Of a stretch of 42,091 bases of DNA, positions 16,907 to 18,451 are shown piece by piece. How positions within the stretch are numbered: the first letter of the stretch is position 1; the number at the start of each line of letters is the position of its first letter. Source of the DNA: Nitrospirales bacterium (GTDB lineage Bacteria; Nitrospirota; Nitrospiria; Nitrospirales; UBA8639); assembly GCA_012270585.1 (NCBI GenBank), contig JAAXIB010000037.1, positions 1-42,091 on the forward strand, given 5' to 3'. The notes under the pieces were generated by a model. The model ran no database searches and was not told the DNA's origin. It saw only the letters and a program-made list of their open reading frames with translations. The position numbers and the translations under genes are program-made.

Positions 16907-16935
16907 TTGACAACTTGCAACGGGATGAGTAGCAT
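16907..16935 (+). promoter_or_regulatory. sigma70-type promoter of the exported-protein pair
   Basis: TTGACA (16907-16912), 17-base spacer, TAGCAT (16930-16935). It has the same hexamers and spacing as the tRNA-Lys promoter. It lies in the 219-base gap after the M16 gene and leaves a leader of roughly 155 bases before the first start codon. Confidence 0.65.
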
Positions 16936-17096
16936 GGGCCACTCTGATTAAAAGCGGGAAGGTCGTGAGGATCGAATCGGCCTTTCAGGCGTTGAGAAAA
17001 AAGGAGAAGTGCTTTTTCGTTGCAATTGAAGAGTTTTTTGGTTAAAAAGTACAAGTCGTTATTTTTATTATGTCATCCTAAGTAAAGGAGGGGGAA

Positions 17097-17645
17097 ATGA
17101 AGAAGTCATTTTTCCGTGGGGGCGTTGTGGGAGTGCTCGCTGCAGGTCTGATGCTCGTTGGGTTCATCGGTCTGGCAGATGCCCAAAAGGGCCCCTGTTC
17201 CAGCAACAAGAAATGTAGCGGTGATCCAAATGAAGTAGCCACTATCGGAGACATGGCCCTCAAAGGGACCGCACCCGCAAGCTTGAAGGGTCGCGTGTAT
17301 GCCCACTGGGCCGACAATCCGGCCGGAGAGATTCTCTTTGGCATTCAATATTGGAACACCAGCAACCCCGGCGAAACCGGTGATCCCCTTGGGCGTGCTT
17401 CCGATGACCGGGACGTGGCCATTCCTGATCCGCTGTTTGTCTGCTGCGCATGGGGGTATCAAGGTGGTGAGGAGCGCAACAGTCCATATGCAGGATGGTA
17501 CAACCCGCAAACCACGGTGCGGTTGCGGGTGAAAGATTCCGCATTGATGAAGCAGTTGACCGACGCGTCGCAAAATTTGGTGGCCATGGAAGTGCAACTC
17601 GACGGCAACACAGTCACGGGCTTCAAAGTCCTTGCTGCCGAATAA
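17097..17645 (+). CDS. exported protein of unknown function (first of a pair)
   Basis: 182 residues with a clear Sec signal peptide: basic start MKKSFFRGG, hydrophobic core VVGVLAAGLMLVGFIGL and cleavage site after ADA (about residue 29). The mature protein begins QKGPCSSNKKCSG and has four Cys: CSSNKKC near the start and a CC pair in LFVCCAWGYQGG. Repeated Trp/Tyr/Gly segments (YAHWADNPAGEILFGIQYWN, SPYAGWYNPQTTVRLRV) suggest a beta-rich fold. No family recognised. A very strong ribosome binding site (AAAGGAGGGGG) precedes the ATG. With its own strong promoter it is likely well expressed and periplasmic or secreted. It is followed by a second exported gene 93 bases on. Confidence 0.85.
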   Translation: MKKSFFRGGVVGVLAAGLMLVGFIGLADAQKGPCSSNKKCSGDPNEVATIGDMALKGTAPASLKGRVYAHWADNPAGEILFGIQYWNTSNPGETGDPLGRASDDRDVAIPDPLFVCCAWGYQGGEERNSPYAGWYNPQTTVRLRVKDSALMKQLTDASQNLVAMEVQLDGNTVTGFKVLAAE

Positions 17646-17738
17646 TAACTGCCGAATTTGGTGTTTATACCAACTGGAAAGGGATTCATTCATTTTAAGA
17701 GTTCTTATTTTTGGCGCTTAATTGAGGAGGAAGGAATC

Positions 17739-18392
17739 ATGAAAATTTGGAAATCAGGGTTAGCCGTTTTAACTGCCTTGATCGTGGTGGGTTGCATGGC
17801 CTCCAGTGCGCTTGCCATTGAAGCATTCCAAGAACGGTTTGAGTGGGGAGATCTCAGCAAAGCGACCACCCTGCACGGTCGAGTGGCTGTCACCGATCCG
17901 TACGACAAAGCCGCTTGGGTGAATATCGCGGTGTTTGGGGGCAATGCCGAGAGTGGGTATTATTGGCAGAAATATTTTCCCGGAAAGAATTTGAAAGTCT
18001 ACGCGGCCGATGATGGCGTGTGGAAGAAACTCGTGGCTCTGGGCAAAGGCTCGCACAGCCAAGCAGTGATGAGTGGGACCGAGGCTTCCAAATACACCCT
18101 GGTTGAACTCGTGATTCAGGAAACCGAGCAGAATCATCGGGTCGTGTCCTCGGTCAAAGAGGTTCCTGAAGTGGCCGGCACGCCGGACAAACCCAGAAGC
18201 ATTCATAGCTTGCGGGCAATCGGCGTCGTGGATTCCATTGACAACAACCATTGGGCACAAAACAAAAAGATGCAGTATGACGTGATGGTTCCGGGCGTGG
18301 GCCCGATTTCCGGGTTTATTCCCTACTCCAACCAAAAGCCCCATACGTCCAAGGGGACAAAGGAAGGAAAATTCGGGGGATTGTTGCAATAA
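17739..18392 (+). CDS. exported protein of unknown function (second of a pair)
   Basis: 217 residues from ATG 17739, chosen over upstream in-frame codons because GAGGAGGAAGG sits right before it and a signal peptide starts there. The signal is MKIWKSGLAVLTALIVVGC followed by MASSALA. Two readings are possible: a lipoprotein cut before Cys19 (VVGC), or Sec cleavage after ALA (residue 26). The mature part has LHGRVAVTDPYDKAAWVNIA, YYWQKYFPGKNLKVYAADDG and a C-terminal PGVGPISGFIPYSNQKPH block. A short [S/T]L[K/H]GRV strand followed by a hydrophobic strand resembles a segment of the upstream neighbour, so the two may be distantly related; that is tentative. A strong terminator follows 23 bases later. 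Confidence 0.85.
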   Translation: MKIWKSGLAVLTALIVVGCMASSALAIEAFQERFEWGDLSKATTLHGRVAVTDPYDKAAWVNIAVFGGNAESGYYWQKYFPGKNLKVYAADDGVWKKLVALGKGSHSQAVMSGTEASKYTLVELVIQETEQNHRVVSSVKEVPEVAGTPDKPRSIHSLRAIGVVDSIDNNHWAQNKKMQYDVMVPGVGPISGFIPYSNQKPHTSKGTKEGKFGGLLQ

Positions 18393-18415
18393 AAAGAGGC
18401 TTTCGCCAAGCAAAA

Positions 18416-18451
18416 GGGCAGGACCTTTTCGAGGTCCTGCCCTTTTTTTTT
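18416..18451 (+). terminator. strong intrinsic terminator, convergent with mutS
   Basis: Perfect 10-bp stem: GGGCAGGACC (18416-18425), loop TTTTCGA, GGTCCTGCCC (18433-18442), followed by nine T. The T run abuts the mutS stop codon on the other strand (18450-18452). Read from the minus strand the hairpin is followed by only four T, so it may also serve mutS, less efficiently. Confidence 0.92.

Follow-up and report, generated by a model that had tools for sequence, protein, structure and literature searches.

Two adjacent genes for predicted exported proteins, here termed A and B, are a real, unnamed core gene pair of the order Nitrospirales with a clear lineage boundary. Our data establish joint inheritance of the two genes, a single operon layout and export signals on both products. 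The explanation we prefer – possible rather than probable – is that A and B are a core two-gene operon of the nitrite-oxidising Nitrospirales and encode a co-secreted pair that forms a complex in the periplasm.

The pair was found in a window of 42,091 nucleotides (the whole stretch of DNA analysed, to which coordinates refer) belonging to a genome of 2.5 Mb whose nearest named records are Nitrospira and Nitrospirales MAGs. A first-pass annotation had drawn a self-contained two-gene unit here, with a strong promoter, two of the window's best ribosome-binding sites, a signal peptide on each protein and a 10-bp GC-rich terminator. The unit is real and was drawn correctly. All elements lie on the + strand. 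The promoter (TTGACA-17-TAGCAT, 16907..16935, 10 of 12 matches) is conserved in nearly all related loci, a TTGACA-N17/18-TANNAT form preceding gene A in almost every locus inspected across two families. It is followed by a long 5′ leader (16936..17096) that is kept among close relatives and not across families; outside close relatives most of the sequence between promoter and start codon drifts. The ribosome-binding site of A is AAGGAGGGGG (17085-17094) and that of B is GAGGAGGA (17724..17731), the latter similar in relatives. The two genes run in the same direction with 93 bp between them in the window, and a search for a terminator-like site on the + strand between A and B found none. The intrinsic terminator that closes the unit (18412..18446) is stronger than had been described – a 16-pair stem in which 8 pairs are G-C, followed by a T-run, with a folding z-score of -6.1 – and an Rfam search of the unit returned sub-threshold matches only, every one at this hairpin.

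Upstream of the unit lie truB, rpsO, pnp and a gene for an M16 peptidase; downstream, on the opposite strand, lies mutS. These neighbours are housekeeping genes, with no gene of nitrogen metabolism among them, and no metal efflux genes were found near the pair. At the left end of the window an ORF (19-1362) contains a YFQADHLGS stretch, which we take to be typical of RHS-repeat proteins.

Gene A (17097..17645, +) is predicted to encode an exported protein of 182 residues and gene B (17739..18392, +) one of 217, each supported by its open reading frame, by homologues and by dN/dS. Among close relatives dN/dS is 0.04-0.16 for both A and B, and because this indicates strong purifying selection we take both to be real genes. 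Judged by eye, the predicted signal peptides are of the Sec type: residues 1-29 in A (17097..17183, +; ...GLADA/QKG), of a type kept across relatives, and residues 1-26 in B (17739..17816, +; ...SSALA/IEAF), with a near-invariant IEAFQERFEWGD next. Codon usage, consulted as a possible sign of the abundance that the first-pass annotation had guessed, gives no expression signal in this genome, since its ribosomal genes score about 0.

The first-pass annotation had also guessed that the pair was specific to its lineage, and had proposed a survey of phylogenetic spread. The survey upholds the restriction and enlarges the lineage, which is most of an order, in which the pair holds a nearly fixed place. 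Our sample of the phylum comprised 198 genomes: 56 of the order Nitrospirales (families f1 and f2), every one of which carries A and B side by side, and 142 others, none of which yielded the pair. A is single-copy in each of the 56 genomes, as is B, bar three weak extra matches that represent a third paralogue (C, below). A wider scan covered 235 genomes of the order and found A in 216; among the 153 with at least 90% completeness and at most 5% contamination, 147 have it. Two of the six good genomes without A belong to a further family, f34; in two more (G316 and G349) B, or the end of it, lies at the edge of a contig, and in the remaining drafts (G253 and G373) the absence is unexplained. 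Wherever the locus is long enough to judge, A and B are neighbours, in most cases about 50-95 bp apart, and in nearly all loci the pair lies between the M16 peptidase gene and mutS; in one genome of the divergent family f33 (G203) the M16 gene is about 5.5 kb off and mutS still adjoins B. A search of plasmids for A gave no match. The pair could double as a lineage marker. Three loci titled Nitrospinota or Phycisphaerales (L017, L021 and L027) show the Nitrospirales gene order, and their bins are probably mislabelled or mixed.

Within the order, the presence of the pair can be set against that of nitrite oxidoreductase (NXR, detected through NxrB). Family f33 has both: A and B occur in all 8 drafts and NxrB pieces in 7 of them, with about 87-97% identity and, for the most part, truncated where the contig ends. 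Family f34 has neither: A and B are missing from its four genomes (73-96% complete), NxrB was not found in them at E 1e-20, and in three of them a small HU-like gene comes after pnp-M16 and the pair is absent. No other family of the order was found to lack the pair, and f34 is likewise the one that lacks NxrB. Beyond the order, NxrB-like proteins of about 48-71% identity are unaccompanied by A and B.

Several observations count against a link to nitrite oxidation. On the tree, the correspondence with NxrB comes down to a single evolutionary event, a joint gain or a joint loss of pair and NxrB, and support for the placement of f34 is weak (outside f33, f1 and f2 in a five-gene tree, support 76; sister to f33 in a two-gene tree, support 69). 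Moreover, of the 56 genomes of the order in the phylum sample, 41 gave a match to NxrB and 15, which carry the pair, gave none, and the genomic neighbours are housekeeping genes. To judge from the contig-edge matches in f33, gaps in the assembly of multi-copy nxr probably account for the 15 negatives. In L144, L145 and further contigs of f33, most nxrB pieces run up to the end of the contig, which is what would be expected if near-identical nxr copies break short-read assemblies; for that reason, absence of nxr from MAGs of the order is unreliable.

Strict adjacency and joint absence across the order suggest that A and B act jointly. The two genes face the same way behind the conserved promoter, and no terminator separates them. 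According to the explanation we prefer, both products would be exported by the Sec route and would then form a heteromeric complex in the periplasm. The likely contact surfaces would be the near-invariant mature N-terminus of B (IEAFQERFEWGD) and the aromatic-rich conserved parts of A. That the two proteins bind one another there we consider fairly probable, the step from surface to complex being one that we infer. More tentatively, the complex might act as an accessory to, or an assembly factor for, the nitrite-oxidising apparatus that faces the periplasm, and not as a metal carrier acting via a conserved ligand set; our estimate of this step ranges from unlikely to possible. A stronger version, in which the pair is a dedicated periplasmic complex required for assembling, scaffolding or feeding the periplasmic NXR of Nitrospirales and was gained with nitrite oxidation itself, strikes us as unlikely. 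If true, it would make the pair an unrecognised core part of the nitrite-oxidising machinery. Nitrospira and its relatives are major nitrite oxidisers, and the supporting parts of the periplasmic nitrite oxidoreductase of these bacteria are, to our knowledge, incompletely known; a strictly paired exported operon that is in almost all members of the order, and missing in the one family in which NxrB, too, went undetected, is a concrete candidate for the missing biology of NXR support.

A rival explanation is common descent. A and B may be a general envelope or periplasmic housekeeping pair of the order – structural, or a folding aid – that shares its distribution with nitrite oxidation by descent only, as their place among housekeeping genes, their detection whether or not a draft shows NxrB, and a single origin on the tree would suggest. 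It is harder to square with f34, which alone among the families of the order was found to lack the pair and which is also the one that lacks NxrB. We regard this explanation, too, as possible rather than probable.

The nature of the proteins themselves bears on what such a pair could do. No family could be named for them in the first-pass annotation, and Pfam, NCBIfam and PDB sequence searches with A, B and C likewise gave nothing above threshold. A and B are related to each other: their profiles match at E 2.1e-5, and with the signal peptides removed the score is 29.6; the highest control values were 19.7 when columns were shuffled 40 times and 17.8 among 37 windows taken from unrelated proteins. 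The short [S/T]L[K/H]GRV pattern noticed early on is present in both proteins, falls on the first domain strand in both models, and looks like a trace of common ancestry, both proteins appearing OB-like. Paralogue C, a predicted exported single-domain protein of about 125-150 residues, occurs sporadically (about 48 of 235 order genomes); it is a clear homologue of the B core (hhalign probability 98.9, E 3.7e-17) and, unlike B, has no C-terminal extension. Its similarity to A is weak and lies partly within the signal peptide. In this A-B-C superfamily, profile similarity goes beyond controls for B-C and for A-B, and the conclusion that A and B are divergent paralogues of one exported OB-like beta-barrel domain is well supported.

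Structure prediction of each protein, proposed at the outset, suggested an OB-like fold for both from weak AlphaFold models (pLDDT 52 for A and 60 for B), the more confident parts of which consist of two strands, then strand-helix-strand-strand. The best structural match of both is to CusF/SilF, periplasmic Cu(I)/Ag(I) chaperones with which they may share an OB-like five-strand barrel, small size and export. SilF matches residues 59-180 of A (17271..17636, +) with Z 8.8 and rmsd 3.5 over 73 residues, and residues about 40-143 of B (17856..18167, +), the part homologous to C, with Z 9.5 and rmsd 2.2 over 75 residues; a Z near 8 may, as the tool warns, mean merely a common arrangement. Because such a value can be unspecific, the fold assignment draws on the agreement of several lines, by which A and B appear to have a fold of a known type. 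Sugars and nucleic acids are common ligands of OB folds, and the structural match lists of A and B include SSB-like and toxin-B-subunit-like barrels as fold neighbours. The two could on these grounds be separately acting exported binding proteins that each bind a different ligand (for example a glycan or a nucleic acid) and are merely co-expressed, but their strict adjacency and joint absence across the order favour joint function, and we judge independent action distinctly unlikely.

Across f1, f2 and f33 neither protein has a His, Cys or internal Met that is invariant; residues fixed across the three families are mainly aromatic, Gly, Asn and charged and, in B, also the first after the signal peptide – a pattern that argues for a binding or assembly surface over a conserved metal site. 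The two Cys pairs reported earlier in A are present (C34/C40 and C116-C117), and neither defines the protein: the first is not conserved, and the second (Cys116-Cys117, 17442..17447, +), invariant in the A1 alignment of f1 and f2, reads GG in f33 and for that reason is not a general active site. The same substitution rules out a metal chaperone acting via the Cys-Cys pair as a general mechanism. That A and B are periplasmic metal chaperones working like CusF/SilF, whose metal ligands are Met, His and Trp, is most improbable: SilF is the top structural match of both and two families have Cys-Cys in A, yet there is no sequence match to CusF/SilF, A and B conserve no metal-ligand residue across families, f33 has GG, and efflux genes are absent nearby. 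Apart from its core, B has a C-terminal extension (18168..18389, +) with a YDV..P stretch that is conserved in the alignment; model confidence is low here. This extension differs between families: copies from f2 and f33 often end in a His-containing tail (GGGGH, AGAHH) and have Cys residues that are absent from f1 copies.

A remote relative is DUF6152 (PF19649), a family of exported proteins: the profiles of B and C align with it above 40 shuffles and 37 unrelated windows, and A shows no similarity to it. The Pfam gathering score of DUF6152 is not reached by A, B or their relatives, one member of C giving E 0.23. DUF6152 differs in having HH after the signal peptide and an NPH motif, both absent from A, B and C. 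A search of the phylum sample for DUF6152 found none, with the control genomes equally silent. The main texts of the literature searched do not mention the pair, and searches found no paper for DUF6152, nor for an OB-fold together with Nitrospira and periplasm. Figure 6 of the N. marina proteome paper omits hypothetical proteins (PMC8115632).

The neighbourhood of paralogue C was considered as a clue to function and rejected, its context differing between genera. In one locus, L103, paralogue C (1919-2299) is adjoined by a gene (1499-1879, -) for an exported protein with EALxHAxxA-type repeats, a product that resembles the small metal-binding protein SmbP; in other genera the neighbours of C are different.
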